Virus record (IMG/VR): IMGVR_UViG_3300010412_000026 | Span: 1-48,322 of that record | Length of the DNA stretch: 48,322 nucleotides | Origin: a virus | Strand: one strand, 5' to 3' | Shown here: in pieces, positions 3,101-31,929 of the stretch | Numbering within the stretch: position 1 is the stretch's first letter | Layout: every line of letters begins with the position of its first letter | The notes under the pieces: model-generated | The model's input: the letters and a program-made list of their open reading frames with translations, nothing else | Database searches by the model: none | Told to the model about the DNA's origin: nothing | Program-made: the position numbers and the translations under genes

Positions 3101-3363
3101 TTGCCTGTTAGATAGTCGGCAGTCGTATCCGTGGGCGATACTTTGACGTATTCATCAGTCGTGGCTGGCAAGTCTTGCCACGCTGCCACGCTGCCGGTTT
3201 CAGTCAGAACTCGGCCATCGATGCCGCTTGGGGTCGGTACTTGTGATATATCTTCCCAGCCGGGCGTGTCGGCACGCTCTATTAATGCACGACCATCGAC
3301 GCCCGTAGGCGTTGGCAAAGTATCACGAACCACCGTAACGGTGCGAATTTTGACAGTCGTCAT
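1..3363 (-). CDS. YadA-head-repeat tail fibre / adhesin, N-terminal part (continues at 48178)
   Basis: This frame has no stop from its ATG at 3363 down to base 1 and continues in frame at 48178, ending at 47723. The whole protein is about 1272 residues. Residues 1-110 are non-repetitive but hold a twofold motif (PTPTGVDGR, PTPSGIDGR, each followed by a W-[EQ]-D element), a likely virion-attachment region. The rest is a long series of imperfect 14-16-residue repeats of the type S-x-A-[IV]-G-x-x-A-x-A-x-G, the left-handed beta-roll repeat of YadA-type trimeric adhesin heads. There is no signal peptide or membrane anchor, so it should be a virion fibre that binds the host rather than an autotransporter. 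The start overlaps the preceding gene as ATGA. Most confident about the repeat fold; the receptor is unknown. Confidence 0.85.
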   Translation of the reverse strand, partial: MTTVKIRTVTVVRDTLPTPTGVDGRALIERADTPGWEDISQVPTPSGIDGRVLTETGSVAAWQDLPATTDEYVKVSPTDTTADYLTGKLVAGSNVDLTVQNAGADEDILISTTGDVTFNSISVRAIAGAAGSEQYGESASAAAVNATALGYLALCTGSNGVAVGANSSCTGSSSAVFGANTSDGGFAACTVVGRNAVAVSDQATTVGYASTANLAGCAYGHSASAAWNAVAIGRSSNAAATGSISLGYSAEITSGATEAINIGYDASNEAQDAVNIGPRCITNSAALRAVCVGHSAFCRGVECVVLGHDAAAYELCSTSVAIGADALVGDAAETIAVPQAVAVGASAVASRDSATALGATAQATQVNATAVGWGAQATGLSGGTAVGVDAQATGGGSSVALGASSRASGASSIGIRNTSSSGTQSIAVGVSSNATADYTIALGANANAGGASGVAIGHNANSGTATSLGAVAIGDGATIPASASSCTCIGATSSVTSSNATAVGSSASAAQNAVALGASAAASGTYATGLGATSTASANYSVAVGFNAAATALDATAVGAISQATQADATALGYDAQAIGTVGSVALGAGARATGISSIGIRNISCSGTEAIAIGVGSQAAGNYVVVLGSSASASGQGNVAIGRSCSCGNLASDRCTAVGNSATVSGNVDDATCLGYNADVTGTAGTAVGSGALSSGDGVAVGMSATVTDDSVAIGRSSAASGIYSVAVGRSATGTTFDSIVAIGGSATCSGASSVSIGRNSSAVANSIAVGYDADATGAQSLAIGYQINVTGGAAIGIGCSVSGSSAIGAGAGAVASNGNASAYGPAASATGSASTAIGYNARAAGTDSIAIGNTRAAANNAIAIGNGDTTGLGFVALGNAVYGSGDYTVNIGYNVQSSIAARSVSLGAQISSTGSDAVSIGYASNADGAHQIAIGRQAAAGLDGTTANEAAIAIGYLAACAATGLDDYPYAIAHGYQAHAYGTQTLAMGATSSVTAAGGIAHGYAASVTGAYGIAIGHAAIVSQPYSIAVGHATSIGSTGGGSVVVGDSATSGTNSSANNAVVLGRNAKAGSTSIASAAAISIGLNAIVNGVSSIAIGNGATVNGYANALAIGEGATVS

Positions 3364-3683
3364 GATATATCTCCGCTAACGTCGATAGTTATGCCAGGCC
3401 AGGTTTCGTTCTTGCCGTCTGGATTCCACATTTCTATTTCGGCTTCCATCCGTCCACGGATAAGGTCACCAGCTTGCCACTCAAAGTGAAAAGCGCCCGA
3501 GCCGGACACGGTACCATTATCATCGATGATTGCTGCGCGAGTGAATCTCGTGCCATCAGCTCGACGGACGTGCAAATTAAACGAATAGTCGACTATGCTG
3601 CCCGAATCTTCCCATTCAACGAATAGATACGGCAACAAATCGCCTTCCGTGTATTTTAGAATCGTGACGCAATCGCAGGACAT
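3360..3683 (-). CDS. Small BppU-N-like tail/baseplate accessory protein
   Basis: A 107-residue protein with no signal peptide or membrane segment. Its composition and strand pattern suggest a single beta-sandwich like the N-terminal domain of BppU-type phage baseplate proteins (alternating hydrophobic strands, polar loops such as the RADGTRF and DDNGTVSGSG stretches). It begins with MSCD, as does its upstream neighbour, with which it shares a TAATG junction. Its stop overlaps the start of the giant fibre as ATGA, so the three are probably co-translated. A role as a small adaptor in the fibre assembly is inferred from position only. Confidence 0.5.
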   Translation of the reverse strand: MSCDCVTILKYTEGDLLPYLFVEWEDSGSIVDYSFNLHVRRADGTRFTRAAIIDDNGTVSGSGAFHFEWQAGDLIRGRMEAEIEMWNPDGKNETWPGITIDVSGDIS

Positions 3684-4084
3684 TATGGGCCTCCGACGGA
3701 TGGCAAAATCACAAAATCCCCTTGAATATGCACATATTCGTTATCGGTAATGCCTTGTATTCGACGGACTTCATAAACCCAATATGTCCAGTGGTACGTA
3801 CTAGCAGTAGCGGTCGCCGCTTTCGGTATCGTAAATTCAGTAACGCCGTTTGTTGGGTCTTTATGGCTTCCGGGTAGATTCAAATATTGAGCCTGCACGG
3901 TGCCGCCGAGTTTATCACGTAGCGTAAGCGCTATAGTGTCGAGCGTTATGTCTATTACTTGGCCTTCGCCATCGGTTATCACAACCTCGAAAACATTATC
4001 AGTGCCGCGCGTAATACATATGCCCTGCTCGTCGGGCTTGACGCAAACGGTAGACTCTTCGCTCGCAGCTAAGTCGCAGCTCAT
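3683..4084 (-). CDS. BppU-N-like tail protein
   Basis: A 133-residue protein resembling the BppU N-terminal domain found in many phage tail regions. It has a GQVIDIT strand, then LTLRDKLGGTVQ, a DPTNGVTEFTIP turn and a late strand near HIQGDFVI. That order (input definition, 'DPTNG' loop, final 'QGDF' strand) is typical of this small virion domain. It is joined by TAATG overlaps to both neighbours, between the LamG-type fibre protein and the other MSCD protein. It probably forms part of the tail-tip or fibre assembly; no enzymatic motif is seen. Confidence 0.6.
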   Translation of the reverse strand: MSCDLAASEESTVCVKPDEQGICITRGTDNVFEVVITDGEGQVIDITLDTIALTLRDKLGGTVQAQYLNLPGSHKDPTNGVTEFTIPKAATATASTYHWTYWVYEVRRIQGITDNEYVHIQGDFVILPSVGGP

Positions 4085-5826
4085 TATTGTCGCCTCCTAA
4101 TTTGACCACCGACGCCACCGACTACTCGCACGCGTCCACCGACGGAAGTCGTATCTATCCGACCGGGAATAAATATCTTGCCAAAAAATTCGCCTGAGCC
4201 ATCCACAGAGCCGTCGAGACCAAGCGCCATTGTTAATGCGCTCACAAGCTCGCCATCGCCGTCGATGCTACCTATCAGTCTCGCAAGAATAAATAGGTCA
4301 GCCAGCAAGCTCGAAGTCGCCGCAATTGAACCGCTGATACCGAAACCGCGCCGTAGATAAGCGTCAATCTGAGATAGCCCGGCAAATGCACCAGCAACTG
4401 GTACATCAGCTCGCAAAAAGGCGTCGAGTCCACCGAGCGCATCGACGCTACCGCCCATCGCGTATACTGCATGCAGCCTGGCAGCTAATAAAGAAGTCGC
4501 GGGTGCCAAGCCAGCAAGGCCTAATTGCATAGCTAGCGTGCCAGTAATAGCGCTATCTTCGGGCAGCACTCCCTTTAGAGCTAGCTGTATTATCGGCGTC
4601 GCGCTCAACGCGCTGGCGCCTGGCAAATTAGCCTCTAGCAGCCTATCACGCAGCAGCGTAGCATCTAATGCCGATAGGCCTGCGAACGCGCCGCTAATGG
4701 GCAGCGTGGCGCGTAAATAACCATCTAATACACCTTGCCCTGCGAGCAGGCCACCGAGGTCACCGGCTGCAACAAGATATCCATCGAGGTCACTAATGCC
4801 CGTCAATAGTCCGCCTATCGGGGTCGAGGCTGAAAACAACCCATCGATGGCGCTTTGCCCGTGGAGCGTCGAAGCCAATTTCAATGCGAGCGATAAGTCC
4901 GACAGCAAGCTCGACGTTGCGTCCGACTGTCCGACAATTGGCACGTCGGCGGACAAAAACCCATCAATATCAGACTGCCCGGCAAGCGTAGCAAAAAAAC
5001 CACGGCAGCGGCAAAGGTAGACCTCCAAAAAGCTTTGCGCATCAATGCTGCCCGACACGGGATTGTCGGCAGCTAAAAATGCCGTTAGGTCGCTATCGCC
5101 ATCGATGGAACTCTCTAAAAGCTGCTCTTCGCCACCGAAAGGCGTCTCAACGTCATCGATTTGAATTATTCTTAGGTGTGCCCCCGTAGTCGGCGCATTG
5201 ACCAATGTCGCGCTATTGCCGCCGTATGCGTCGACCTCGGGAGAAAATCTACCAATCAGAGGGAAATATGCGCTAGGCATTTTAAAGCCCGGCGTAAACC
5301 TCTTATAGATTTCCGTCATCTCTTCGGTCGATAAAAGCCGTTTGAATAAGCTAACCTCGGCTATCCAACCGTCGAATGCTCGATCCGTCTTATCCGGGCT
5401 GCCGCTAATGGTGAATGGCAAACCGTTATCTAGCGAGCCCGTTGTAGGGTTACTGTTAATCGCTAGCGGAATATTGTCGCCCCAAAGCTCAATTTGTACC
5501 GCAGCATTACGACGGCCAACGAGCATATGCCAATTGCCATCGTTTAAATTAGGCACCGTCGCTTCGACTCTTAGTCGGCCTGCCCCTAACGGCTGAATGT
5601 CAAAGCGTATGCTGCCCGCTACGCCGTCTCTCAGTTTTAGTTCCCACCCAGTCCCGTTATCCCAATTACGATTGCCGACGATTGCCTCGTCGTTATTGGG
5701 GCTTGCTAATGGGCGTCGAACCCAACAAATTACGGTGAAATCGCCAGTGCCAATAAGCAGCGACGCCGGCAAAGGTGCCGCGACGACCAATTGTTGGTTA
5801 GTGGCATTACTAAATATTCGCGCCAC
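4084..5826 (-). CDS. LamG-type lectin domain plus repeat-rich tail fibre protein
   Basis: A 580-residue protein with a GTG start preceded by AAGGGG. Residues about 15-205 look like a LamG/concanavalin-like jelly roll (FTVICWVRRP, GNWHMLVGRRN, FDGWIAEVSLFKRLLSTEEM), a fold that usually binds carbohydrate. Residues about 235-550 are imperfect repeats of roughly 23 residues, of the form G-x-LAG-x-S-x-LDGYL-x-A-x-x-P-I-x-G. The last 25 residues are Gly/Arg/Val-rich. It lies in the fibre cluster and ends in a TAATG overlap with the BppU-like gene. Likely a host-recognition component; the ligand cannot be predicted. Confidence 0.65.
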   Translation of the reverse strand: MARIFSNATNQQLVVAAPLPASLLIGTGDFTVICWVRRPLASPNNDEAIVGNRNWDNGTGWELKLRDGVAGSIRFDIQPLGAGRLRVEATVPNLNDGNWHMLVGRRNAAVQIELWGDNIPLAINSNPTTGSLDNGLPFTISGSPDKTDRAFDGWIAEVSLFKRLLSTEEMTEIYKRFTPGFKMPSAYFPLIGRFSPEVDAYGGNSATLVNAPTTGAHLRIIQIDDVETPFGGEEQLLESSIDGDSDLTAFLAADNPVSGSIDAQSFLEVYLCRCRGFFATLAGQSDIDGFLSADVPIVGQSDATSSLLSDLSLALKLASTLHGQSAIDGLFSASTPIGGLLTGISDLDGYLVAAGDLGGLLAGQGVLDGYLRATLPISGAFAGLSALDATLLRDRLLEANLPGASALSATPIIQLALKGVLPEDSAITGTLAMQLGLAGLAPATSLLAARLHAVYAMGGSVDALGGLDAFLRADVPVAGAFAGLSQIDAYLRRGFGISGSIAATSSLLADLFILARLIGSIDGDGELVSALTMALGLDGSVDGSGEFFGKIFIPGRIDTTSVGGRVRVVGGVGGQIRRRQ

Positions 5827-5838
5827 GGCATCCCCTTA

Positions 5839-6339
5839 CTATGCTAGCGCTTCGCGGATTTCGACGCGTAGCAGCTCCGCATCGCCGACTAGGTTATCCG
5901 ATACGTTTGCCGCCGCTCGCCGAACAAAAGCTCGGAACGAATCGCCATTGACGATGTTGTCGATTTGCGCACCGTCCGTAAAATTGATTTCGCTATATTG
6001 CAGCGCACCGTTCAGCGCGGGCGCGCCTGCGACGACCAACTGAGCCGCGGCAAATCCATTGGCGTCAAGGTCATCAACGCCTTGTTGATGCCGCTCAAAT
6101 GCTACCTCCCAGACGACATTGCCCGTCGTAGCGGTTGTTGCCATCCAATACAGCGTGACCACTAGGCCATTGCCGTCGTATATGCGTGGCATTACGCTAC
6201 CAAAATAAGCCGTTTCGGCCACCGTATCGTCGAAGTCTAAGACAGGATGCGCGTTGCGCAAATCAAGCGTTGCGAAGTTAGTTGCCGGTGGACGTGCCGA
6301 AGCGGCAGTCCACACTAGCAAAGTATGTCCCTGCGCCAT
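5839..6339 (-). CDS. Conserved phage fibre-region structural protein
   Basis: A 166-residue protein without signal peptide or membrane segment, predicted all-beta. It resembles a family seen near phage fibre genes, with a run like HPVLDFDDTVAETAYF, then a MPRIYDGNGLVV strand, a VVWEVAFER strand and a late AELLRVEIRE strand. Such proteins are generally annotated as structural. It sits between the gp80-like protein and the LamG fibre on the same strand with short spacers. Family recognition is from memory of the pattern and the precise role is unknown. Confidence 0.5.
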   Translation of the reverse strand: MAQGHTLLVWTAASARPPATNFATLDLRNAHPVLDFDDTVAETAYFGSVMPRIYDGNGLVVTLYWMATTATTGNVVWEVAFERHQQGVDDLDANGFAAAQLVVAGAPALNGALQYSEINFTDGAQIDNIVNGDSFRAFVRRAAANVSDNLVGDAELLRVEIREALA

Positions 6340-6350
6340 GCAGCCCTCTA

Positions 6351-6755
6351 CTAGTCAAGCGTAATGTCGAGGTCGCCAATCTGAAACGATGCCGTATCGC
6401 CTGAGTCGATGGTCTTAGGATTCGTTAGCGTGCCCCATCCGAGCATATTGCCGCCGCTTGCAGCGTCCGAGATAAAAAACCATGATACGGTGCCCCAGCT
6501 TGCCGTCGCAGTAGGGAACGCAATCAGTGAGCCATTGCTCTTTGCGCCGCCAATTGCCGCAGGCCAATTCGTCAAATTATTTGTGACCGCGACTCTCGCA
6601 TAGCCGTTAGCTCCCGATGGTTCCGTAATATTGCCGCCCGCATCAGTCGGTAAAGTCGTTGACAAGCCAACGTAAAGAGTCACTGGCGCCGTATAAGCCG
6701 ATGCGCCCCAAACATGATCAAGCAATTCGTTCTCAAGGAAATCGCCGAAACTCAT
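6351..6755 (-). CDS. gp80-like phage tail fibre / structural protein
   Basis: A 134-residue protein. The ATG at 6755 was chosen because AAAGGG precedes it; a seven-codon upstream extension has no ribosome binding site. The pattern is that of a very common phage family: an N-terminal helix (FGDFLENELLDHVWG), TAPVTLYVGLSTT, TEPSGANGYARVAV, NNLTNWPAA, WGTVSWFFISDAASGGNMLGWG, and a C-terminal GDTASFQIGDLDITLD strand. It is a small beta-rich virion protein encoded among tail fibre genes here. Its exact place in the particle is not known. Confidence 0.75.
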   Translation of the reverse strand: MSFGDFLENELLDHVWGASAYTAPVTLYVGLSTTLPTDAGGNITEPSGANGYARVAVTNNLTNWPAAIGGAKSNGSLIAFPTATASWGTVSWFFISDAASGGNMLGWGTLTNPKTIDSGDTASFQIGDLDITLD

Positions 6756-20129: not shown

Positions 20130-21113
20130 TTACGCTAATACGTCGTTAAAGAATACGCCGAGGTCTGAAGCTACGACCTGCTGGTCATATGCCATCTCGC
20201 CTTCGACACGGTCGCTGCGTAGGTGCTGCATTCTGAATCGAAGCATCCGCAAACCATCAGCCGCTGCGCCGAGGTAGCCGGTCCACGAAAACGTGTAACC
20301 CGCACTTGGCATCATTAACGATGGTCGGTCGGCTGCGTAACACAACAAAGCAGCGTCCTCAAACAGCAGCTTAAGGTCATCGCCAGTCGGAGCACCCTCG
20401 ATGGCAATATTCTGAATTGCGCCAGCGAGTAAAATTCCACCCGGCGGCAATCCGAGCACCGATGCAAGCAAGTCCAGAGTCACGATTTTGTCGCGAGTAA
20501 TGGCGATGCGGTCCAAGAAATCCGCATTGTCCTGAATCGCGTCCCAAACGTCCTCGCCCAAAATTAGGCGATTCGGCCTAAATCCGCTCTGAGTTTTAAT
20601 CGACCGCATCTGAGTGCGAATATCTTTAATAGGCGTCGAGCTTCCTGCATTCCACTTGGTACTCGGCACGATATCGGTGCCCGTAGTACTGCCAGTCCAT
20701 ACGCCCGTTTTAAAATACTTGTCGGCGAAATCTTTCTCGCGACGAAGCAATAAGCCGCGCGTGACTAGCTCGCTCACGGTGGTGTCGAGGTCAATAGGCG
20801 CATCGGCATTGGATCTTACTTGGTCGTCAATGTCGATATGCAGTGATTTGACGCGGGCATGGTACGCCGGACTCTGCTCGATACTGAATCGCGTTCCAGC
20901 AGATTCACTGCCCATTGGGCGCTCGCGAGCTTCCGTTCGGAACCATTCTCCCTTGGGAAACACAAAATAAACATCGGAGTTTTTGGCGACTGGTACATTC
21001 GGAAAGCACTTGGTCGCAATAAATTCCGATTGGTCCTGCATGTAAGCGATACTGATGTTCGTCAACGGTTGATTAACGTGAACATCGCTCGCCGTAGGCC
21101 TTGAAGTAGGCAT
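20130..21113 (-). CDS. Major capsid protein (GpE-like HK97 fold)
   Basis: A 327-residue protein in the capsid position after the scaffold and decoration genes. It matches the major capsid protein E group: an N-terminal SDVHVNQPLTNISIAYMQDQSEFIATKCFPNVPVAKNSDVYFVFPKGEWFR, EQSPAYHARVKSLHIDIDDQVRSNAD, a central GFRPNRLILGEDVWDAIQDN (typical 'P-N-x-x-[IV]-[IL]-G-x-x-[VA]-W') and a late GYTFSWTG strand. It lacks an obvious long delta domain, consistent with a separate scaffold gene. It forms the icosahedral shell. Confidence 0.88.
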   Translation of the reverse strand: MPTSRPTASDVHVNQPLTNISIAYMQDQSEFIATKCFPNVPVAKNSDVYFVFPKGEWFRTEARERPMGSESAGTRFSIEQSPAYHARVKSLHIDIDDQVRSNADAPIDLDTTVSELVTRGLLLRREKDFADKYFKTGVWTGSTTGTDIVPSTKWNAGSSTPIKDIRTQMRSIKTQSGFRPNRLILGEDVWDAIQDNADFLDRIAITRDKIVTLDLLASVLGLPPGGILLAGAIQNIAIEGAPTGDDLKLLFEDAALLCYAADRPSLMMPSAGYTFSWTGYLGAAADGLRMLRFRMQHLRSDRVEGEMAYDQQVVASDLGVFFNDVLA

Positions 21114-21137: not shown

Positions 21138-21512
21138 TTACGGTAAATACCCTGCGGGCTTCAGAGCGATGGTCAAACGCTCCTCTGCAGTGCTCGTCGT
21201 CGATAATGCCCGTCCTGCGGCAAAGGTAGCCGATACCGCAGTAATAGCACGACCTTGAGCATCGCTTTGCACTAAGTCGCCAGCAGTGACAGCAGCGCCA
21301 CAGCGAACTATGCAACGACCACCCAGAGCCACCGAAGCAGGCTCGCCTACGTCCGGCTTACCAATCAAAACGCCATCAACGACGCCACCGGCCGAAGTAT
21401 TCAGGACGACCGCGCCATTGCTGTCGATTACGACAAAAGAATCTTGAGCCGCCGTGAGGTCTGCCCCAGCGACTACGCCTTCAAGTATGTCCTTTGGATT
21501 TTCCCAAGCCAT
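21138..21512 (-). CDS. Capsid decoration / stabilising protein (DUF2190-like)
   Basis: A 124-residue beta-rich protein lying between scaffold and major capsid genes, where head decoration proteins are usually encoded. It has VVAGADLTAAQDSFVVIDSNGAVVLNT, then GVLIGKPDVGEPASVALGGRCIVRCGAAVTAGDLVQSDAQGRAI, the 'G-x-a-x-V-x-[TA]-G-D-x-[LV]-x-x-[DN]-x-x-G-[RK]-A' motif of DUF2190-like cement proteins. It probably trims the capsid surface and steadies it after expansion. Length is standard. Confidence 0.8.
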   Translation of the reverse strand: MAWENPKDILEGVVAGADLTAAQDSFVVIDSNGAVVLNTSAGGVVDGVLIGKPDVGEPASVALGGRCIVRCGAAVTAGDLVQSDAQGRAITAVSATFAAGRALSTTSTAEERLTIALKPAGYLP

Positions 21513-21528
21513 CTTTTACCTCACGGTT

Positions 21529-22467
21529 TTATTGCCTAAAAGGTTCAGTCTGTGCGGGATGCTCAGCTAAATATTGGTTGTATAATTCTTTGCCCACTGC
21601 GCTTTTCATGACTCGCGCAATGGCCTTTTCTTTCGTCAGATTCAAATCGCCGCTTTTTTCGACGAGACCGTCGGCCATCTTTGTAATCTGAGACCATGCG
21701 GAATCGTTACGATTAAACGAGTTACCAGATCTTGGCGATGGTCGTAATCCGGCATCGGTCAGTAACTGGCTCTTTTCAATGGTAACGCTAGCCTGCTTCA
21801 TCGCCTCGAATTGAGAAGCCGCTAGTTCCGGCATTTGCTTATGCAACGTGAAAAGCATTTTGCCGAGTTCGTCCGCAGACTTGCCCGGATAAAATGGAAG
21901 TTCAGCCTGGCACTTGGCAACCCAAGCTTCAAGGTCGCGCTGTTCGCGCTCGGCCTGTAGCGCTGCTTCGCTCTTAGCCACTTGCTCTTTGAGGGCTTGG
22001 ATTTGATCTTCTTGAGCCTTAAGCACTGGCTCTAGCGCCGCTCTAACTTCAGGGGATAATTCGCTTTTAGTCACTGGGTCACCATCCTTTGAGCCCTCTT
22101 TTGGCTCGGTATACTCATTTCCGGGCTCTTTGCTCGGTGGTTCGTAGCCGGCCATCGCAGCTAATTTTTCCATAACGTCGCCGGGCAATTGGTCCTTAAA
22201 CCCTGCCAATATCCGCAATGCGCCGCGTACTGCTTCCATGCCTTGCTCGGACATCTTTGCGGCTTCGAAAACTTCAGCCAATTTAGCTTCGGCTTCAGTT
22301 TCCGTTTCCATCACGGACTTTAGCACCTTCATGAAGTCGCTAGTCATGCTTGGTTCCTTTTTAAATATCGGGAATCTTTTTTTCTTATTAGCGCCTCGGG
22401 TCACCAGAGAGACTTCTTCTGCTCTTAGATCCGTTAATGCTGTTAAGCCGTCTCTGCCCATTGTCAT
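21529..22467 (-). CDS. Capsid scaffold protein with XkdF-linker N-terminus
   Basis: A 312-residue protein. Residues about 10-35 (LRAEEVSLVTRGANKKKRFPIFKKE) match the stretch that often links a prohead protease to its scaffold in single-chain versions. Here the gene is split from the protease by an ATGA overlap. Residues about 45-75 and 145-215 are acidic coiled coil (ALEPVLKAQEDQIQALKEQVAKSEAALQAERE). Scaffold proteins of this type fill the prohead and are then degraded. The upstream multidomain protein supplies the likely protease. Confidence 0.75.
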   Translation of the reverse strand: MTMGRDGLTALTDLRAEEVSLVTRGANKKKRFPIFKKEPSMTSDFMKVLKSVMETETEAEAKLAEVFEAAKMSEQGMEAVRGALRILAGFKDQLPGDVMEKLAAMAGYEPPSKEPGNEYTEPKEGSKDGDPVTKSELSPEVRAALEPVLKAQEDQIQALKEQVAKSEAALQAEREQRDLEAWVAKCQAELPFYPGKSADELGKMLFTLHKQMPELAASQFEAMKQASVTIEKSQLLTDAGLRPSPRSGNSFNRNDSAWSQITKMADGLVEKSGDLNLTKEKAIARVMKSAVGKELYNQYLAEHPAQTEPFRQ

Positions 22468-25400
22468 CGCTCCGATTGTCGAGGGACTAATTCGACGTAA
22501 GTTACGCGCGGCATAGCTGAGCGGTCAATGGGCGTTCGTATCCCAAGGCCGCCCGGTGAAAACGCGTTTATTTCACCGGATTTAAAGGCTGCCCACTCGT
22601 CAGGTCCAAGTTCGACGCCTAAACACCACGAACCTGAGTGCACTTTGTCAGTGCCAAAGGGTCTAGCCCATACCTTATGCGGCTTTAGTTGCATCGCCGC
22701 TAGATAGTCTTCTCTAGTTGGATATTGTTCCACCCAGCTCTCAACTACCCGCGCGTTCGCTTTTTTGTCATGCTGTAGTCCTACCGTCATGTCGCCTTGC
22801 AAAAATCTATGTGCTGTTTTTTCGATTTCGCCCGGTGGCATCCAGTCGTTATGCGCATCCTCTGCGGGACCATGCTCGCCATATGGATCGAGCACAACTC
22901 CGTAAACTATACGCTTTTCGCTGTCTACTTTGACGATAGGTACATCTACCGATTTGTCGGAACCGTAAGCTTGAATGTCTATCAGCTTAGGTTGTGTGTT
23001 TGGACCTCCCCAGACAAGATACTTCTGACCTTTTTGCTTCAGGTCTTTTACTTCATCGTCGAGTTTTTGGCGTTCAATTATCGGTGTCTGTTCCTCGGGT
23101 TTATCTATGAGCCAAACCCGTCTTTTTGTTCCACCTTCTTCGAACTCCGCTAACTGCAGCAAATATCTACCTTTTAGATGCTTGCCGTCAAGAAAAACTT
23201 CTATGGCACTGCGCTTTGCCACACCAATTTGATAAGTGCCATGGTCCATAGCAAAAAACTTTGCGTAAGTCTCTGACGTGGCACCGGGACCACCTGGCTC
23301 TGCAATGTACGGTTTATCGACGCCAATATTGAGCCAAGCCGAAGGTTGCTGCAACTTGGGCGCTAGGCGCAATTTAGTTTCACTATCGCTATCGAGTGCA
23401 ATCAGCTTATCGCCGCCGACCTTTTTGTTCTCATCTGCACTACCTATAAGTACCGCCCATCCCCATAGGCCACCGTCGCCAGTAAACCTCAGGTCGCCAT
23501 GCAGGCTATGGTCGCTATTGATCAATTCGGCATCAGTTTTGTTTAGTTCGTCCTCAGTAACGCCGCGCCAGTGGTGTTGATAAACGAATTTTCCTCGGCC
23601 GCTCTTCGGCAGATAATCTTGCCAATTTTCGAACCACGCATCCATGGCCTCAGAGCCACGCGTATCTTCGCCACCTTCTTCGAGATTGTGGGGTTTTTGC
23701 TTAGCGATTTCGACTTCTTGCTTTAGCCTTCGGAGCTTACGCCCTATCTCGCCCGAATCCCCATAGCGCAGCACTGCCATAGGATGCGGTAGGCAGTAAT
23801 TGACGCGGCTGCCGAGCGCTTTCTGAGCGAGGCGTCCGAGAGAGACCACTACTGCGGGCTGCAGCTCATCCAACTTCGCAATAACTTCTTTGATGCCATT
23901 AGCCACCTCGGTATCCGTTGGCTCTCGCAAATTACCTGCGTTATCGAGCAACAACTTGGGCACAATGTCAGCCATTATTATTTCTTGGCGAGTTAGACCG
24001 AGCGGCTCGAGATAGAGCCGATTGAATACATCGCCACCCATGCCCGCTAGATGCTCTTTGCGCGCAAATTCTAAACGGCCAGGCTGACCACCTATAAACG
24101 CAATGGGCGCAAATTTAGGACCAACCAATGGCAGCTCGAGTTTTTTCTGAAGTACTTGAGACCGGGTTGTTATATCGATAGCCTGTTCGGCTGAAAACGG
24201 CAGTTCTTGCGAGCTATCAATATCGACGACCTTGGGACCAAGCCATATCAGCATACCGTTTTCTTTGTCGGGCACCAATTCTTGCACTTCGACCGTCAGG
24301 ACATCGCCAGGCTTGGCTTTTAGCGTCGTACTATAGGTTTTGCCTAGGACGATATAAGGCTTGCCATTATATTCGACAACGTTTCGCCAATCGGACGCGC
24401 CGGCTGCTAGACCGCATTCATAAGTATAAGAGCCGCTAGCCGTTTCGTTGCGCTTTAGCGCGATAACTTTAAGCTCAGCCACTCGTTTAAGTTCCGCCCA
24501 TTCCTTCGTGCCCCCATCGGTCGAATAATTGCCCGCGCTAGATTTCGCCATAAGCCCCTCTGACCTCGGTTGGTCGAACGCCCAATGTGAGGCTTCGCGC
24601 AATTGGTCGATGTTTTCAACCCATTCCAGAGGAGTTATTCGTATATCCTCGGATTCTATTTGTCCGATAATTTGTTCCAGCGTTTCTCTGCGTCTTTTAA
24701 ACGGTTCTTGTGTGATATCTTCGACCAAGTAAGGAACATCAAAAGCACTAATAACAACCCTGTCATCATCACTAAGCTCTGGCTCGTCTGCATCTAGCAC
24801 TCCTAAGTCAATGCGCGGCAAACGTTCACCGTCGCGTTCAATGCCAAAATCGACATCAAGAATGACATCTCTATCAAATCCGCGCATGGCTTCAATAATA
24901 GTCGGGAAGCGCTTGCTTAAGTCTTTGCCAATGGCACGTTCGAACCAAATCGAAACGCGGTCGCCCTTTTTGCTGATAATGCCACGGTAGCCATTGAGCT
25001 TAGGTTCGACCGCGACAGGCAACCGTGTTTCTGCCCAAGGCCATATTTCGTCGATCTCGTATACTTGGGTCGTGACTACCGTAGTCGGCTTCGGTGGCTT
25101 GAAACCCTTTAGCGGCTCAAGTGCCTTCAATAAACTTATTACACCCTCATCAAAGCGCGCTTGCTCTAAAGCATTGATATACAAGGCACATGAGCCAAAT
25201 TTTTCGACTACGCCTTCGACTAATTGGCATCTTGATGCCGGACTACCTATAGTGCCTGGCAGATAGGCGACGCAGGTCACGCACGGATTTTCTTGCAGGT
25301 GATTGCCGCTGTAATACTGCGCTTCGGTCTTAAAAAATGGCCGTTTTTGTTTATCTTTGACCTCGAGAGCTTTCCAAAAAGTAAGCCCCAGCGAATTTTG

Positions 25401-26132
25401 CGGCATATCCTCTTTTACGACCTGCGACTGAATCTTATCGCGTCGACGCAGTATCAGGTCATAAAGCGGATAACAGGTATCATGCGGTCCCTGAGCATTC
25501 CAGACAAACGAAAGCAGGTCTTTTTTTTCGGGGTCGAGCACATTGCGCAGCGGGAGCCAGACGTTTTGCACGTCGACCAATGCACTGCCACCGTCCCTAG
25601 CGGCTCGTACTAGTATGTCGATATCCTTGGGATTAGAGCACCTCTTGGCCATCGAACCGACGAGCGAGATGAAATCCTTAACCATCAATATATCGGTAGG
25701 CAGCTCGCCTAGCTTCTCGCCGACATCCATTGATTTGCGTACGCTAGCCAGCTTGTCGGCCTCTGCCTTAAGGTCCGTATCGGTGGCTTCAAATCCGCGC
25801 TTGTCAAATTCAGCAAGCACCCATATCGCAGCATTTACATAGTCTTCGACTGGTTTTTTATGCTGCTTAGCACTCGCGAACCATTGATTTAGGCGATACC
25901 AAGTATCGAGCACTTCTTCATCGGTGGCGCGCGCAAGCATCTCTGGCCTTATGTCTACCAAGGCCAGTTTCTCGACAGTAGATGGCTCGTCTTGCCGATG
26001 CCTAGCCCTACCGCCGGCGCGACTCCGTGCCTCAGCTCGCAACGACGCGTAAACCCATCCGGGCAGCTTCTTTCGTGCGACTTCCCAAAGCTCTTCTAAA
26101 AACTCTCGGCTGAAGCCTTGCGATTCTCTCAC
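22464..26132 (-). CDS. Multidomain head protein: NTase-like, Cys cluster, DNA ligase, UDG-like, LigD-PE-like and XkdF protease
   Basis: A 1222-residue protein with a GTG start right after the TAA of the previous gene. In order: helical N-terminus (1-140); nucleotidyltransferase-like segment (about 145-235; GS at 159-160, D170 and D172); four Cys at 284, 287, 302, 315; ATP-dependent ligase (about 372-555; motif I KLNGYR with K378, LDVDFG near 425-430, SEGLMAK at 524-530, WAELKR at 545-550) and a probable OB fold to 640; uracil-DNA-glycosylase-like domain (about 670-805; GGQPG, then PHP at 782-784); LigD-type 3'-phosphoesterase-like domain (about 848-1000; H853/H854, H878, D880, R882, H964, Y967); XkdF-like protease (about 1070-1200; GLQH at 1118-1121, ES at 1131-1132). 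The split scaffold follows. The ligase and protease ends are most secure; the NTase call is the weakest. Confidence 0.8.
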   Translation of the reverse strand: MRESQGFSREFLEELWEVARKKLPGWVYASLRAEARSRAGGRARHRQDEPSTVEKLALVDIRPEMLARATDEEVLDTWYRLNQWFASAKQHKKPVEDYVNAAIWVLAEFDKRGFEATDTDLKAEADKLASVRKSMDVGEKLGELPTDILMVKDFISLVGSMAKRCSNPKDIDILVRAARDGGSALVDVQNVWLPLRNVLDPEKKDLLSFVWNAQGPHDTCYPLYDLILRRRDKIQSQVVKEDMPQNSLGLTFWKALEVKDKQKRPFFKTEAQYYSGNHLQENPCVTCVAYLPGTIGSPASRCQLVEGVVEKFGSCALYINALEQARFDEGVISLLKALEPLKGFKPPKPTTVVTTQVYEIDEIWPWAETRLPVAVEPKLNGYRGIISKKGDRVSIWFERAIGKDLSKRFPTIIEAMRGFDRDVILDVDFGIERDGERLPRIDLGVLDADEPELSDDDRVVISAFDVPYLVEDITQEPFKRRRETLEQIIGQIESEDIRITPLEWVENIDQLREASHWAFDQPRSEGLMAKSSAGNYSTDGGTKEWAELKRVAELKVIALKRNETASGSYTYECGLAAGASDWRNVVEYNGKPYIVLGKTYSTTLKAKPGDVLTVEVQELVPDKENGMLIWLGPKVVDIDSSQELPFSAEQAIDITTRSQVLQKKLELPLVGPKFAPIAFIGGQPGRLEFARKEHLAGMGGDVFNRLYLEPLGLTRQEIIMADIVPKLLLDNAGNLREPTDTEVANGIKEVIAKLDELQPAVVVSLGRLAQKALGSRVNYCLPHPMAVLRYGDSGEIGRKLRRLKQEVEIAKQKPHNLEEGGEDTRGSEAMDAWFENWQDYLPKSGRGKFVYQHHWRGVTEDELNKTDAELINSDHSLHGDLRFTGDGGLWGWAVLIGSADENKKVGGDKLIALDSDSETKLRLAPKLQQPSAWLNIGVDKPYIAEPGGPGATSETYAKFFAMDHGTYQIGVAKRSAIEVFLDGKHLKGRYLLQLAEFEEGGTKRRVWLIDKPEEQTPIIERQKLDDEVKDLKQKGQKYLVWGGPNTQPKLIDIQAYGSDKSVDVPIVKVDSEKRIVYGVVLDPYGEHGPAEDAHNDWMPPGEIEKTAHRFLQGDMTVGLQHDKKANARVVESWVEQYPTREDYLAAMQLKPHKVWARPFGTDKVHSGSWCLGVELGPDEWAAFKSGEINAFSPGGLGIRTPIDRSAMPRVTYVELVPRQSER

Positions 26133-27149
26133 TTATCCCTCGCTTCTGCGTAAAATCTCAGTGCAGCGGCAATACGGATGCGCCGGTGGCCTTGCAATAG
26201 GCGCTGGCGCGTACATGCTTTCGTAAGATTCGCCTAAATTTCTACGCTGCCCGTCGAGGTCGTTGCATATTCTGCAAGTTCGACCACCGGCGTTATATCC
26301 TGGCACTGCAACCCATACGCGAACTACAGGTGGCAATGAGCCCTGATTCTTAGCTTGTTGCCATAACTGATTGCGACCTTCCGCTTGCGCCGCCGTCGTC
26401 TCGGTGCGGGCTATGCGCTCTGCTCTTTTTTTTCGCAATTTTTCCGCATACTTATCAGCTTTCTCGCTTATTTTTTCTTGCGATAGCCCTGCTTGCTCGA
26501 GTATTTGCCGTCGGCGGTTTACGGCTGCGTATTCACGCGTAGTTAGACCAATATCTTGACGTAAACGGTCGACGATAGTCTCGGCGCGTTCGCCGCGCTC
26601 AAACGCGTCATATAGTAGCTGCCGGACCATGCTTTTTTGTTCGCGAGTAATGTACTGAGCAATCAGGTTGCCGGTGGCTTGCCTTATCCATTCTAAGCTG
26701 GCAGGATTCACAGGGTTGGTAGGCACGGCACTGATTATGTTTTCGGCTTTAGAAATGTCCTCCTTGGGGCTGAAAGTCAAATCGGTGCCGAGCTGACGGT
26801 TAACGTCTTTTGCTTCTTGGTCGCCAGCTTGAGTCAAAACATCAGCATAGGCTTGCACGACTTTATCGATGGCTTTTTGCCAATATTCATTGGGCGCGCC
26901 GGCATCATACCAAGGGATAACATCGACTATTTCTTCGGGGTTGCTTGTCTCTTTTAGAGCTGCCTTAACTTGTTTAATTACATCGTCATTAATAAGTTCG
27001 CGCTGAATGCTTTGGAATATTCGGCTAAACTTGCCGACGTTTTTGTCGGCTATATTGTAGGCTTGCTGCAATGCCCTTTCGTCGAGCTTGGCTTTTTTTA
27101 CTCGTACTTTCCAAGCTCGCTCGGCCTTATGGACGGAAACAAAAGGCAT
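26133..27149 (-). CDS. Mu gpF-like minor head / head morphogenesis protein
   Basis: A 338-residue protein following the portal gene by a TAATG overlap, as in Mu-like and many other phages. The first 200 residues are helical. The last part has RIARTETTAAQAEGRNQLWQQ, the usual 'A-R-T-E' helix of the family, then a metal-site-like block (GGRTCRICNDLDGQ ... HPYCRCTEI) with Cys pairs and a His. Family members stay inside or at the portal vertex and help head assembly or DNA injection. Confidence 0.82.
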   Translation of the reverse strand: MPFVSVHKAERAWKVRVKKAKLDERALQQAYNIADKNVGKFSRIFQSIQRELINDDVIKQVKAALKETSNPEEIVDVIPWYDAGAPNEYWQKAIDKVVQAYADVLTQAGDQEAKDVNRQLGTDLTFSPKEDISKAENIISAVPTNPVNPASLEWIRQATGNLIAQYITREQKSMVRQLLYDAFERGERAETIVDRLRQDIGLTTREYAAVNRRRQILEQAGLSQEKISEKADKYAEKLRKKRAERIARTETTAAQAEGRNQLWQQAKNQGSLPPVVRVWVAVPGYNAGGRTCRICNDLDGQRRNLGESYESMYAPAPIARPPAHPYCRCTEILRRSEG

Positions 27150-28558
27150 TAGATTGTACCTATTAGTGGCAGCTTCAACTGACGACTACGAACAGTCCGC
27201 TTTATTTGACGTGGGCTAGACTTCCTGATTTTGCAGCACTGCTTTTGAATGGCACTGTCATTGCTGAGTTCGAACTCGGTGTCTTCGTCGGGTTGGGGCA
27301 AAGACCCGATTTCGAGCAGCTTGCGTTGCAGTGGCTTGTCGCCTTCGGGCAGCATGCCCGAATTGGCCAATGCCGTGATATACTGAGCGACCTCTGCCAG
27401 CGCCGGGGTCTCAAGGTCTCCATGTACCAAATACGGCCAATAATCGTTTGGCACATTGTTAAGCTCCATGAGCCTCGGTATCGCGAATCTATTCCAGACG
27501 GCGGCAATATTGTCTAAAATACCACCGAGCGCGACGGCGAAAACATTGGTGAAATTGCTGGCGAGCGCGAAAGAACCCGTGTTAGTGCTGCCGAGTTCAA
27601 GAAATTGCGCAAGCACCGATTGAAAAATAGCCTTACGATAGTAGTTTTTGGTCTCGTTTATATCGGTTGGCTTCCGGCTCGCTCCTTGAACAGTACCTAG
27701 CTTGTATCCGGTAGGATTGCCTTTGCTGTCTACTTCCGGTGGTGTCAGCGCGAATTCCCGCTCGTCTCGCTTGAGCTGACTGAGCATGGTCTCAATCTCA
27801 GCACGCAGCCTAGCGTCATCGCCATTGCGCGCTTGCAATAGCTTTAACGGGACTTGCATGTGCAATAGGCCGAGAGCATCGCGTTCGATGCCGACCACCT
27901 CGAACTCCTCGATTCGCTGCAGCTTATAGGCGTCGACCACTGCATTTCGCCACAAACTCCGACCTTCGGGGTTGTTTTTGACGTTCTCAGTGCGGAACAG
28001 CAGAGCCTTTTCAATAGGTATATACGCATCGATGCCCGCGTACATGTCGCTTTGATGCATCCCACGGATGCCACCGTCAGAATCGAATTCCCAGCGCTCT
28101 AACGTATCTTGACCGCGAAGCTTGATTTTGCGCCAACCCCATAGGCCATCATTATATTTAGACCGGAGTCGCGCATCGTTATTTCTGCCGCGACGAAGTT
28201 TGTAAACGATTTCAAAGTAAGCCCACCCGTAATCGAGAAAGGTCAATGCCTCCGACATCCATTCCTCGAAGGTATGGCTCATGTCTTCGAGGCAGCCCTC
28301 CAAGAATTCGGCTTGCTCTTTAGCGCGCGGGTCATCAGACGCTGGCTCGACTCGAAACTCAACGCCACCAAAATAAGCGCGGATAAGAAAGCGAACTGCA
28401 CCGATAACTGAACTATTATCGGTGAGCTGCTGAATAGTCTTGTAGCCACCTGGCTTGCGCAGTCTCGGATGCCATTCCTCATCGACGATGCCACCCGACT
28501 GCTTAAGCCCGGACGTACCAAGTATTTGTAGCTGTTCAACTGGCTCTTTGTCAGACAC
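27149..28558 (-). CDS. Portal protein (DUF935, Mu gp29-like)
   Basis: A 469-residue protein with a GTG start at 28558 preceded by GGAGG. It has the DUF935 portal pattern: TIQQLTDNSSVIGAVRFLIRAYFGGVEFRVEPAS near the N-terminus, FEEWMSEALTFLDYGWAYFEIVYKLRRG, WEFDSDGGIRGMHQ, EGRSLWRNAVVDAYKLQRIEEFEVVGIERDALGL, and the C-terminal NTGSFALASNFTNVFAVALGGI. It forms the dodecameric DNA channel at one vertex. It lies between terminase and the gpF-like gene, as expected. Confidence 0.9.
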   Translation of the reverse strand: MSDKEPVEQLQILGTSGLKQSGGIVDEEWHPRLRKPGGYKTIQQLTDNSSVIGAVRFLIRAYFGGVEFRVEPASDDPRAKEQAEFLEGCLEDMSHTFEEWMSEALTFLDYGWAYFEIVYKLRRGRNNDARLRSKYNDGLWGWRKIKLRGQDTLERWEFDSDGGIRGMHQSDMYAGIDAYIPIEKALLFRTENVKNNPEGRSLWRNAVVDAYKLQRIEEFEVVGIERDALGLLHMQVPLKLLQARNGDDARLRAEIETMLSQLKRDEREFALTPPEVDSKGNPTGYKLGTVQGASRKPTDINETKNYYRKAIFQSVLAQFLELGSTNTGSFALASNFTNVFAVALGGILDNIAAVWNRFAIPRLMELNNVPNDYWPYLVHGDLETPALAEVAQYITALANSGMLPEGDKPLQRKLLEIGSLPQPDEDTEFELSNDSAIQKQCCKIRKSSPRQIKRTVRSRQLKLPLIGTI

Positions 28559-28575: not shown

Positions 28576-29949
28576 TTAGAACGCTGCCGGATTAGGCTGA
28601 ATACCAGCGCTTGAAACGTTCCATCCGAACAGCTCTTCTTGCGGCTTTAATTCAGCCCAAGCGTAAATTACGGCATCGCCTGCGTCGGTACTGCGCCCGA
28701 TTCGCTTGCGTATTTCGTCCTTGGATTCGACCTTTATCACCTTATCGCCCGAGACTGTATACCTCGGAGCGGTCAAGTCCTCAATTAGTCGGTCATCCCA
28801 CGTCTCGAAGCAAACTTCACCCTTTCGGAGCGCCTCGCGGAATTCCCACCAAAGCTGCGAGCGTAAGTTAGCGAAACGGAACATACTTTCTGTTCCATCT
28901 ACTTCGCGCTCAATGGCCTTTCCACCGCTTTGTACCTCGAGCACTTCATAGCCATGCTTTCGGCAGTTATCTACTACGCCTGCACCGAGACCAACCACGT
29001 CGACGTTTACCATGTTGGCATCGATACTTTCGTCGCGCATCAATGCCATTACAAGGTCTGCGGTCCGGTCGATGCTAAGCTGCTGATGATATTCGATTTT
29101 AATCAGAGCGTTGCCCTGCCGCAGAGCGAAAACGGTATTGTCATCACCATAGCGCGCCACGTCGACACCCAGCCCTTTTTTGCCGTCTTTGAACTCGACG
29201 TTGCGCGCTGCCTCGGTCCATTCGAATTTAATTAACTGAGTCGGGTCGTCGGCCTGGTCCCAATCGCCGAGCACGAACCGTCGATACGCCTTGGGGTCCG
29301 TGTGCCGCATATGGTCCAGGCTTTCGAGGTATGCGGCAGGTATATGCGGATTGTCATCGACACGCGCGGGTAGATAGAAAAACGGTGGTTTCAGCCGACC
29401 CGTTTTCCAATTATCGTAAAACAGCCTTTTTACCCAATTTCTTGCGGGATTGCAGGTCATCACGATTAGCACCGGTGGCTGCGGTCTATCAGGGATAACC
29501 CAAGTACCAGCGCGCTCGATGGCCTTGTTAAAGCTCTGCTCGCTAAGCTCGTTTGCCTCTTCGAGCACGAAACCGTTGACCTCCAAGCCTTTCCATCGGT
29601 CAAGGTCGGGGTCGTGCTTAATTGCTTCCGCAAACAGAAATACCTCAGAGCCATTAGTGCATCGATAGGTCCAAGTCGTCTGCTTTAGCGAGCGCATGAA
29701 ATTAGACGGTCGGATGCGCTCAATTGTCGGTATCGTATTTCGGCGCAGCGTCGGCAGGTCTTTGCGGACTATCGCCCACCGTGAACCGGGGAATATTTTG
29801 CATAGCAATATGACGAGCGCTATCGCGACGACTGACTTGCCGCCTCGTATGGCGCCACCGTAAAGCAGATAGCTATATTTGCCGCTTAAAACGGCCTCCG
29901 CGAAATCGTTCTGCTTAGGGAATAACTCGAGGTCAAACGAACCATCCAT
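28576..29949 (-). CDS. terL: Terminase large subunit
   Basis: A 457-residue protein, the ATPase/nuclease motor that packages DNA. Walker A is GGAIRGGKS at residues 31-39. A Walker B-like GFVLEEANEL lies near residue 135 with the following acidic pair. The nuclease part begins around KGLGVDVARYGDDNTVF, where D in the V-D-V-A-R motif is a predicted metal ligand, and TDAGDAVIYAWAE near the C-terminus supplies another. The ATG at 29949 overlaps the upstream stop as TGATG. Confidence 0.93.
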   Translation of the reverse strand: MDGSFDLELFPKQNDFAEAVLSGKYSYLLYGGAIRGGKSVVAIALVILLCKIFPGSRWAIVRKDLPTLRRNTIPTIERIRPSNFMRSLKQTTWTYRCTNGSEVFLFAEAIKHDPDLDRWKGLEVNGFVLEEANELSEQSFNKAIERAGTWVIPDRPQPPVLIVMTCNPARNWVKRLFYDNWKTGRLKPPFFYLPARVDDNPHIPAAYLESLDHMRHTDPKAYRRFVLGDWDQADDPTQLIKFEWTEAARNVEFKDGKKGLGVDVARYGDDNTVFALRQGNALIKIEYHQQLSIDRTADLVMALMRDESIDANMVNVDVVGLGAGVVDNCRKHGYEVLEVQSGGKAIEREVDGTESMFRFANLRSQLWWEFREALRKGEVCFETWDDRLIEDLTAPRYTVSGDKVIKVESKDEIRKRIGRSTDAGDAVIYAWAELKPQEELFGWNVSSAGIQPNPAAF

Positions 29950-30500
29950 CAAAATTCTATCTTTTTACCGCCAATAGTTATCGTTTGTACAACCTTGGGC
30001 TCGCCAATCGTGTGGTCATGCTGCTGAATCTCTTCAGGCTCGCCTCTAGCCCTTGCCTCTAGCTTTGTAGCGACCTCTACTAGCTTGATCGCAATAGCGT
30101 CTTGCATAAGGTCGGGGTCCATTACGGCTAAACGCTTGACCGCTTTATCTAGCATCAACAGAGCTAGCTGCGCGTGGCGCTCGCGCATCTTGCCGACTTG
30201 CTTTGCTGCTTCCTTTTGTTGCTGACGGTCAACATGCGCATCCCAGGCCTCGATGCGTTTTCGCCAATTGTATTTCGACGACAAAACGTAAAGCGATTTT
30301 ATGTTCCGTCTAACCGCTTTAGCGGCTGCAGCCATAGTCCTATCGCCACCGAGGTCACGGTAGGCCTGAAACGCCAAAAATGCCTTGCCGGTCTCGCCGG
30401 GCAATCTTTCCCAAGGCATTCGGTATTGAGCCGCAATCGATTCGATTGCCTCGAATTCTTCTTTGCTTATCGCTCGCTTTCTACGTGATTTTTGCGGCAT
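29949..30500 (-). CDS. terS: Terminase small subunit-like DNA-binding protein
   Basis: A 183-residue protein directly upstream of terL. After a basic N-terminus it has ETGKAFLAFQAYRDLGGDRTMAAAAKAVRRNIKSLYVLSSKYNWRKRIEAWDAHV, a helix-turn-helix pattern seen in many small terminases, with a W-x-x-R-x-x-A-W-D tail. A long helix follows, then a short beta tail. It should recognise the phage DNA end or start site and recruit TerL. Its start overlaps the radical SAM gene by 20 bp. Confidence 0.8.
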   Translation of the reverse strand: MPQKSRRKRAISKEEFEAIESIAAQYRMPWERLPGETGKAFLAFQAYRDLGGDRTMAAAAKAVRRNIKSLYVLSSKYNWRKRIEAWDAHVDRQQQKEAAKQVGKMRERHAQLALLMLDKAVKRLAVMDPDLMQDAIAIKLVEVATKLEARARGEPEEIQQHDHTIGEPKVVQTITIGGKKIEF

Positions 30501-31929
30501 TTTCGTGCCTCTCTATATACCAACAAGTCGTATGCTTGGGTTCGCGCCTAAGCAACCCACGGTAGCGATAAACCAAATTCCCTTCATCATCTTGACCATG
30601 GACGCGCCAAGCGCCCTGGAAATACTTTAGGGGACTGCGTTCATGATGCGGATTATTCCAATGTTCAAGCAGCTTATCGCGCCAAGTTTTATGCTTGCGG
30701 TCATATTTTTTTTTCGGTCCTGCCCCCATGTATCCTAGTTCGCCTGCGAGAATATCGCCTGCCCAAGGCGGTATGACTAAATCATGCGTAATCGGCAACA
30801 CAAAATTATGTACGGCTTCATACATCGCGTTGGTGGCATTTTCCCTCTGCCAGTTACCAAATACTGGATCATCCGGCTTGATACCGCAGCAACAACCGGT
30901 GGTCGTCAACTGCTTCCATACGGGGTCACTGACGCCTATCGATAGTCCGCAGCTCTTTGCTACGTCATAGATTGCGTGCATTATTTGTTCGGTCCACAGA
31001 TAGCTAGGACGCAAGCAGGCCTGCTTTTTACCTAGTCTTTGATAGATATTTTTGAGCTTCATTCCTGCCGCTTCCTCTAATCGCTCCCATCGCTCTTTTT
31101 GCTCGGGCGAATATCGCGTCGGCACGAAGCCAGCTTCGTAGCTAATAGCGCACGCTCCGGCTTCAGCCGCGCGCTCGATAAGCTCAATATAAGCCTTCGG
31201 ATGCTTGCGCGTGGAATCGGTAATGCCTGGCCAAATCGGACGCATCCTGAGGCTTGTTTTGCACCCGAGCTTAGATAGCTTGCGCATGGCTTCGAGCCGT
31301 TTGCTAGGACTCGGTGCCCGCGCATCTGTTACGCGCGCCTTAGAGTCATCAATAGTATTGATAGACCACGCAACCCAAAAAAGCTCGGGACTTTTAGCGA
31401 TTTCTGCGAGGTAATCGTCATCCGCAATGACCGTGCCTTTTGTTGATATACGTACCGGTTGACGATACTTGCGGGCGAGCTTGATAAACTCGAGTGCCCA
31501 ACCTTGTTGCCGCTCAATTTCGTCGAACGGGTCGTTGATACCGCCGAGCTGAATCGGACACGGATAACCCCTAGCATTCGGTCGGTCGTATTTGAGCGCT
31601 TTGCGCAGTACTCGGAGCTTTTGACTATCCGTCTCGCCTGAAAAGAGAGCATCTATGGCAGATAGGCTTGTCTGACCGATATCAGCGCTCCTCGATTTCG
31701 AACGGCCAATTAGCTGCTCGGAGAAGCAATAAAGACACCCATAAGAGCAAATCGAATGCGAATCAACCGTGACGGGCAGTGCGCAGTCGAAGCCATCGGC
31801 GGTCAGTCGGATGCCATTATATGGTCTAAGCCTTATTCGGTGCGATTCGCAGCGCATCTTAGTGCAGGATTTGCACGTCGAACATAACTGAGCGGTAGAG
31901 ATTCTCTCATAGCGTCGTTGCCAAAGCAT
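30481..31929 (-). CDS. Radical SAM protein, spore photoproduct lyase (SplB)-like
   Basis: A 482-residue protein. The radical SAM motif C-x3-C-x2-C is present as CSYGCLYC (C61, C65, C68), binding the [4Fe-4S] cluster that cleaves S-adenosylmethionine. Four further Cys (16, 19, 22, 27) make a second cluster or zinc site possible. The middle (IQLGGINDPFDEIERQQ, RISTKGTVI, LFWVAWSINTID) has the COG1533 photolyase-like pattern. A C-terminal 120-residue extension is Lys/His/Trp-rich. It lies between a ParB-like gene and the terminase. Pyrimidine-dimer repair or base modification are both possible; no experiment distinguishes them here. Confidence 0.75.
   Translation of the reverse strand: MLWQRRYERISTAQLCSTCKSCTKMRCESHRIRLRPYNGIRLTADGFDCALPVTVDSHSICSYGCLYCFSEQLIGRSKSRSADIGQTSLSAIDALFSGETDSQKLRVLRKALKYDRPNARGYPCPIQLGGINDPFDEIERQQGWALEFIKLARKYRQPVRISTKGTVIADDDYLAEIAKSPELFWVAWSINTIDDSKARVTDARAPSPSKRLEAMRKLSKLGCKTSLRMRPIWPGITDSTRKHPKAYIELIERAAEAGACAISYEAGFVPTRYSPEQKERWERLEEAAGMKLKNIYQRLGKKQACLRPSYLWTEQIMHAIYDVAKSCGLSIGVSDPVWKQLTTTGCCCGIKPDDPVFGNWQRENATNAMYEAVHNFVLPITHDLVIPPWAGDILAGELGYMGAGPKKKYDRKHKTWRDKLLEHWNNPHHERSPLKYFQGAWRVHGQDDEGNLVYRYRGLLRREPKHTTCWYIERHENAAKIT

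Follow-up and report, generated by a model that had tools for sequence, protein, structure and literature searches.

A prohead-protease polyprotein with LigD-like ligase and phosphoesterase domains and a uracil-DNA glycosylase fold in a viral head gene block

The sequence analysed here is the IMG/VR virus record IMGVR_UViG_3300010412_000026, 48,322 bases in length, and "the window" below means all of it. An earlier note on this DNA had described a 1222-residue open reading frame of the head region at 22464-26132, and the frame is present there, on the minus strand. By Pfam and PHROGs matches the genes for the terminase large subunit (TerL), a Mu-type portal and a MuF-like protein lie on its upstream side, and those for a scaffold-like protein, a cement protein and the major capsid protein on its downstream side, as follows:

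28576..29952, minus strand: terminase large subunit (PF04466, 2e-11; phrog_2, 6e-43)
27149..28558, minus strand: Mu-type portal protein (PF06074, 3.4e-26)
26133..27149, minus strand: MuF-like head morphogenesis protein (PF04233, 1.1e-10; phrog_3517, 1.7e-35)
22464..26132, minus strand: 1222-aa polyprotein, GTG start at 26132, stop at 22464
21529..22467, minus strand: next gene, an N-terminal XkdF-type segment (EVSLVTRGANKK) plus a scaffold-like protein (phrog_3017 match; homologues in 32 ORFs)
21138..21512, minus strand: capsid cement/decoration protein (PF09956, 3.8e-6)
20130..21113, minus strand: major capsid protein (phrog_1005, 3e-77)

The start of the polyprotein gene directly adjoins the MuF stop (26133), and its end shares 4 nt with the next gene (ATGA, 22464-22467). 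Near the terminase gene a Radical SAM protein (PA0069/Rv2578c-like) is encoded at 30481-31929 on the minus strand, with no homologue in the loci of the relatives described below. No Rfam match to an RNA element was found in the window or in loci L022, L009 and L080.

The polyprotein had been read as a series of enzyme domains standing before an XkdF-type protease, and profile and fold searches back that reading, weakly so for the nucleotidyltransferase and the cysteine cluster. From the N-terminus, the parts are:

25806..25979, minus strand: N-terminal helical domain, residues 52-109 (48 matches in 47 ORFs; common to most relatives)
25443..25688, minus strand: Pol-beta-type nucleotidyltransferase-like (NT) domain, residues 149-230 (G159, D170, D172, D225)
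25188..25283, minus strand: four-Cys cluster C284, C287, C302, C315 (related segment only in L014 and L042)
24483..25055, minus strand: ATP-dependent ligase adenylation domain, residues 360-550 (K378, N380, D428, E525, G526; E547 in motif V)
24216..24476, minus strand: ligase OB-like domain, residues 553-639 (custom HMM; aligned to the ANMV-1 ligase)
23718..24185, minus strand: uracil-DNA glycosylase (UDG) fold, family 4/UdgX-like, residues 650-805 (PF03167, UDG_fam4, fold match to 1ui0)
23655..23696, minus strand: disordered linker with conserved EEG(G)xTR motif (pLDDT < 50)
23088..23594, minus strand: LigD-type 3'-phosphoesterase (PE) domain, residues 847-1015 (H854, H878, D880, R882)
22536..22937, minus strand: XkdF-type (S78_2) prohead protease core, residues 1066-1199 (H1121, S1192)

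The C-terminal domain matches the Pfam family Peptidase_S78_2/XkdF at 2.2e-15 (residues 1066-1195; 57.2 bits against a cut-off of 24), and among relatives its residues S1192 and D1092 are present in all copies aligned (35/35 and 36/36) and H1121 in 27/36. The match to phrog_3017 is divided between two genes: residues 11-50 of the next gene correspond to profile positions 5-44 and the polyprotein to positions 38-158. As judged from sequence, the XkdF protease is split and re-ordered, with its N-terminal motif carried by the scaffold gene and its core at the end of the polyprotein. The earlier placing of the protease beside a split scaffold holds in this form, the next gene being the missing XkdF N-terminal piece plus a scaffold.

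The ligase domain matches DNA_ligase_A_M (PF01068) at 3.4e-15 (residues 373-549; 56.7 bits against a cut-off of 26.2), and its best NCBIfam match is TIGR02776 (LigD) at 8e-12. The motif I lysine K378 is found in 61/61 aligned sequences, and in motif IV E525 is kept in 60/61 and G526 in 61/61. One row of these ligase columns is L011, an ordinary cellular ligase of a Patescibacteria MAG that was rejected as a relative. The K-x-K of motif V is absent from the window copy, which has W-A-E-L-K there with E547 at the place of the first lysine, a lysine kept by every other relative aligned at that position. The window ligase also has D428 for Glu and N380 for Asp, and both types occur in relatives too. 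The ligase with K378 and EG/K motifs of the earlier note is upheld in its profile, in K378 and in EG; its motif V lysine is not there. The fold is that of a ligase, and catalysis by the window copy is uncertain.

Behind the OB-like domain lies a domain that matches PF03167 at 7.7e-12 (residues 671-791; 45.9 bits against a cut-off of 24.3) and NCBIfam UDG_fam4 at 1.7e-8. In an AlphaFold model of residues 640-1222 (mean pLDDT 79.7), which was used for the UDG and PE fold comparisons, it superimposes on the family-4 UDG 1ui0 with a VIA Z of 19.3 and an rmsd of 2.2 over 151 aligned residues. The UDG-like fold that had been proposed is thereby confirmed by Pfam and the modelled fold, and the Glu of motif 1 (UdgX E52) is missing: the HMMER alignment places G682 there and K726 at the UdgX His109 position. 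Close relatives hold Ala at the motif-1 Glu position. No CxxC that could supply Fe-S cysteines of family 4 precedes the UDG domain in the window copy.

The same model places the PE domain close to the archaeal LigD PE structures 3p43 (Z 13.7, rmsd 1.9, 123 of 124 target residues) and 3p4h (Z 13.6, 117 of 118 target residues). A profile built from 28 PE domains (window and relatives) matches 3p43 at 9e-7 and 3p4h at 3.5e-5, and the Pfam family LigD_N gives 0.005 over residues 960-992, beneath the Pfam cut-off. The metal-site residues H854, H878, D880 and R882 are conserved in the family; H964 and Y967, which had been listed with them, fall in variable columns and were mis-assigned. The equivalents of P. 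aeruginosa LigD His84 and Tyr88 are absent from the PE domain, the aligned places being Q929 and an invariant W933. The EEG(G)xTR motif in the linker before PE is kept in relatives whatever domain precedes PE (UDG or OB), and this linker is a candidate cleavage site. It is the sole conserved linker motif; a general cleavage-like motif at every domain junction was not found.

The N-terminal helical domain is modelled by AlphaFold with a pLDDT of 90-96. In the NT domain that follows it the GS...DxD motif is conserved across relatives (G159 55/55, D170 55/55, D172 60/60), and the third Asp, D225, is the commonest residue at its column, present in 40 aligned relatives. NTP_transf_2 and DNA_pol_B_palm match some relatives at 0.0012 and do not match the window copy. 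The best Foldseek match is MNT at an E of 0.22, which is not significant (AlphaFold mean pLDDT 66), and the VIA rows for the NT-region model mostly report the N-terminal helices, with one MNT chain at Z 4.2. The nucleotidyltransferase assignment draws on motif and topology, its profile and fold backing being weak. The four-Cys segment has a weak HiPIP-like match (E 0.22) and a pLDDT of 33-40. What had been said of these two regions stands as far as the cysteines and the NT motif go, with weak profile and fold support for the NT.

The earlier note had recognised neither the relatives nor their modular cargo, archaeal virus members included. Relatives came from three sources: tblastn against phage records gave the archaeal virus ANMV-1, a genome scan gave Methanosarcinales, Methanophagales and Myxococcales MAG contigs, and scans of viral contigs with PE and NT alignments gave 69 loci. 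Single-sequence scans (P0001 or P0009) and a two-sequence ligase alignment run on viral contigs found no true relatives, and the first match in L001 was a chance match in a tail-type protein. When relatives are grouped at 95% identity on one core domain (L011 standing outside the counts) and their architectures assigned with custom HMMs, they form 59 clusters, nearly all of uncultured viral contigs, together with ANMV-1 virus and the archaeal and Myxococcales MAG contigs. NT, ligase and PE occur in a single ORF in 37 of the 59, a fused S78_2 protease in 27 and a UDG domain in six. The independent contig L014 has the same eight-part series as the window (Nterm-NT-Cys-LIG-OB-UDG-PE-S78) at 52-78% identity per domain, which rules out an assembly chimera; since L014 repeats this order and the core recurs in 59 clusters, chance is excluded as well.

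Two main domain orders are found among the relatives, NT-LIG-OB-PE and NT-PE-PE-LIG-OB. In loci L048, L061, L072 and L082 parts are neighbouring separate genes, which supports a working partnership among them. The fusion to the protease is not essential, since several loci have the enzymes in separate ORFs with no fused protease; in such cases a separate protease gene often comes next. Of 51 clusters that could be tested, 42 have portal, MuF or TerL genes upstream, and in seven of the other nine PHROGs recognised a portal or minor head protein; scaffold, cement, major capsid protein or protease genes lie downstream in 38/47. Ku (PF02735) was found in none of 47 viral records, many of which are fragments.

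Each domain is under purifying selection in the relatives: among close ones, all domain pairs with unsaturated synonymous sites give a dN/dS of 0.01-0.11 (0.06-0.11 for UDG). Between the window and L014 synonymous sites are saturated except in the NT domain, where dN/dS is 0.11. We note that some loci show insertions, identified by eye or by domain. An HNH-type homing-endonuclease-like ORF (by eye) within OB cuts the polyprotein gene of L022 in two (L022:4136-5056, minus strand), and a LAGLIDADG domain, possibly an intein, lies between OB and PE in L032 (residues 1154-1222 of ORF 1006-6354). Segments of ASCH-type appearance (by eye) follow the portal in L010 and L012.

The extra domains of the relatives vary. 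By Pfam they include Dam D12 methylase, pyrimidine-dimer glycosylase (Pyr_excise), UDG, class I methyltransferase, metallo-beta-lactamase (MBL), DHH/DHHA1, 2H and Acb1 domains. The anti-CBASS Acb1 domain lies inside a prohead-protease polyprotein (L015:8030-8470; 2.6e-22) and has both HxT motifs. In a Myxococcales MAG contig an ORF of 1970+ aa downstream of a MuF-like gene (L013:2211-8120) has three Dam methylase matches, as well as NT, PE, the start of a ligase and a possible ART (by eye). Such a mix of cargo is as expected of polyvalent proteins (PMC5512222).

The domain content of the polyprotein and its fusion, its place in the head block, its recurrence, the conserved motifs and the purifying selection are best explained, with a confidence that we put at about even, by a polyvalent virion-associated chain in which a LigD-like end-processing core with a UDG-fold accessory forms an N-terminal extension of an XkdF-type protease. 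The packaging and cleavage that this explanation includes would proceed as follows. The assembling protease would bring the fused enzymes into the prohead and, as the head matures, would cleave both the linkers and its own chain; the enzymes would remain in the capsid and be ejected with the genome. Incoming DNA could then be freed of nicks, base damage and blocked 3' ends and, with their help, be sealed or circularised, and the exchangeable cargo (methylases, Acb1, glycosylases) might counter host defence or damage. The head operon is normally expressed late. Packaging is preferred because repair and anti-defence enzymes made from a late head operon would reach an incoming genome only if they were borne by the particle, and polyvalent proteins and T4 Alt are precedents for packaged enzymes (PMC5512222). 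Against this explanation we count that the window copy lacks the motif V lysine of the ligase, the motif-1 Glu of UDG and the PE equivalents of His84 and Tyr88, that no cleavage-like motif recurs at all junctions, that several loci have separate enzyme ORFs with no fused protease, and that Ku was found in none of the 47 viral records. The folds are present in the window copy, and its full activity is doubtful because of two of these replacements, E547 for the motif V Lys and G682 for the UDG motif-1 Glu.

Fusion to a prohead protease and a place beside portal, MuF and scaffold would also suit enzymes whose work is confined to packaging within the infected cell: at the prohead or the portal they would seal or repair the genome before or during its entry into the head, and would then be broken down or excluded from the finished virion. 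Partners of prohead proteases are often digested, which also speaks for this possibility; the Acb1 and Dam cargo, however, makes better sense if it reaches the host cytoplasm or acts there, and we regard action confined to packaging as unlikely, if the nearest competitor of the packaged chain. Alternatively the core might work on RNA, such as tRNAs that a host defence has cleaved: NT would rebuild 3' ends, PE would heal ends and the ligase would seal. RNA ligases share the ligase fold, RNA_ligase (PF09414) is matched by two relatives (best 9e-6), 2H-type cargo is present, and 3' ribonucleotide ends are a substrate of LigD PE enzymes. DNA ligase profiles are nevertheless matched far better, and it is DNA glycosylases and DNA methylases that recur as cargo, so that an RNA substrate appears improbable.

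The replaced residues themselves allow a further reading, that the enzyme domains of the window virus are partly decayed and the chain serves the head mainly from within, as a structural or DNA-binding component. E547, where every other aligned relative has Lys, would be a sign of such decay, together with D428 for Glu, N380 for Asp and G682 in UDG motif 1. The 1222-aa frame is intact, however, the residues of the NT, the PE metal site and the protease are kept, the D428 and N380 types are found in relatives too, and purifying selection in the relatives is strong; we consider decay the least probable of these explanations.

The packaged chain extends to a wider proposal, which we hold tentatively and at slightly less than even confidence: that in many uncultured tailed viruses infecting bacteria or archaea the capsid is loaded, by way of a self-processing prohead polyprotein, with a LigD-like apparatus for end joining and base repair. 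Interchangeable anti-defence cargo (Acb1 and Dam methylase, for example) would travel with it, and a genome entering a cell would bring its own repair kit along. If this is true, DNA end-repair enzymes are packed into the heads of tailed viruses that infect bacteria and archaea, and it can be asked directly by what means a linear genome, during the first minutes after entry, withstands nicks, lesions and the nucleases of the host. The slot that separates portal/MuF from scaffold in the head operon is a place for a systematic search for anti-defence and DNA-repair enzymes; Acb1, Dam, UDG-fold and pyrimidine-dimer glycosylase domains have already been found in it.

Polyvalent proteins, as described by Iyer et al. 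2017 (PMC5512222), are enzymes encoded beside virion genes and predicted to be packaged and injected, and zincin-like peptidases are stressed in that description. Like them, the polyprotein is a multidomain chain with an embedded peptidase that is encoded with virion genes. Both are large chains that join disparate enzymes to a peptidase, and adenine methylases, ARTs and 2H domains are cargo common to both; in the text of PMC5512222 neither XkdF nor a serine protease or glycosylase is named, nor is DNA ligase given as a component domain. Bacterial LigD likewise joins a ligase, a PE and a nucleotide-adding domain in one chain. Unlike in LigD, a Pol-beta-type NT replaces the archaeo-eukaryotic primase polymerase in the viral chain, a UDG fold and a protease are added, the PE His84 and Tyr88 are not kept and Ku was found in none of the 47 viral records, many of them fragments.

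A further close system is AJP62006.1 of ANMV-1 virus (KP703175), an 866-aa protein annotated "ATP-dependent DNA ligase" that has the order NT-LIG-OB-PE and is encoded between the portal and a MuF-like protein. It is 24% identical to the window polyprotein across the ligase (E 1e-13) and lacks the protease and UDG; the word "ligase" does not occur in the text of the ANMV-1 paper (PMC4372165). In the same genome a 1166-aa protein (L003:5868-9368) has many Cys-rich repeats and a MuF-like C-terminus (by eye). Genes with a protease of the same S78_2 type have been annotated as DNA methyltransferase (Lactococcus ul36-type and Rhizobium RHph_TM16; phrog_1530), and by annotation they may be a precedent for linking this protease with DNA enzymes; they have no ligase, PE, NT or UDG, and their matches to the window span the protease alone.

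In the account of Pitcher et al. 2006 cited in PMC7719229, the mycobacteriophages Omega and Corndog use their own Ku and the LigD of the host for genome circularisation, which would be LigD-type end-joining at infection as proposed here; going by that citation these phages bring Ku and borrow LigD, whereas in the present relatives the virus itself encodes the LigD-like core and no Ku turned up in 47 records. African swine fever virus also has a repair set for base excision (Pol X, ligase and AP endonuclease; PMC5330486, PMC7076025), in which a ligase accompanies a minimal polymerase of the Pol-beta type; in that unrelated eukaryotic virus the proteins are separate, with no LigD PE and no prohead protease. 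The open-access literature searched gave no description of ligase/PE/XkdF fusions. Both polyvalent proteins and prohead-protease genes annotated as enzymes are already known. New relative to that literature is the presence, within the head block, of a LigD-like core of ligase, PE and nucleotidyltransferase, whether or not a prohead protease is fused to it.
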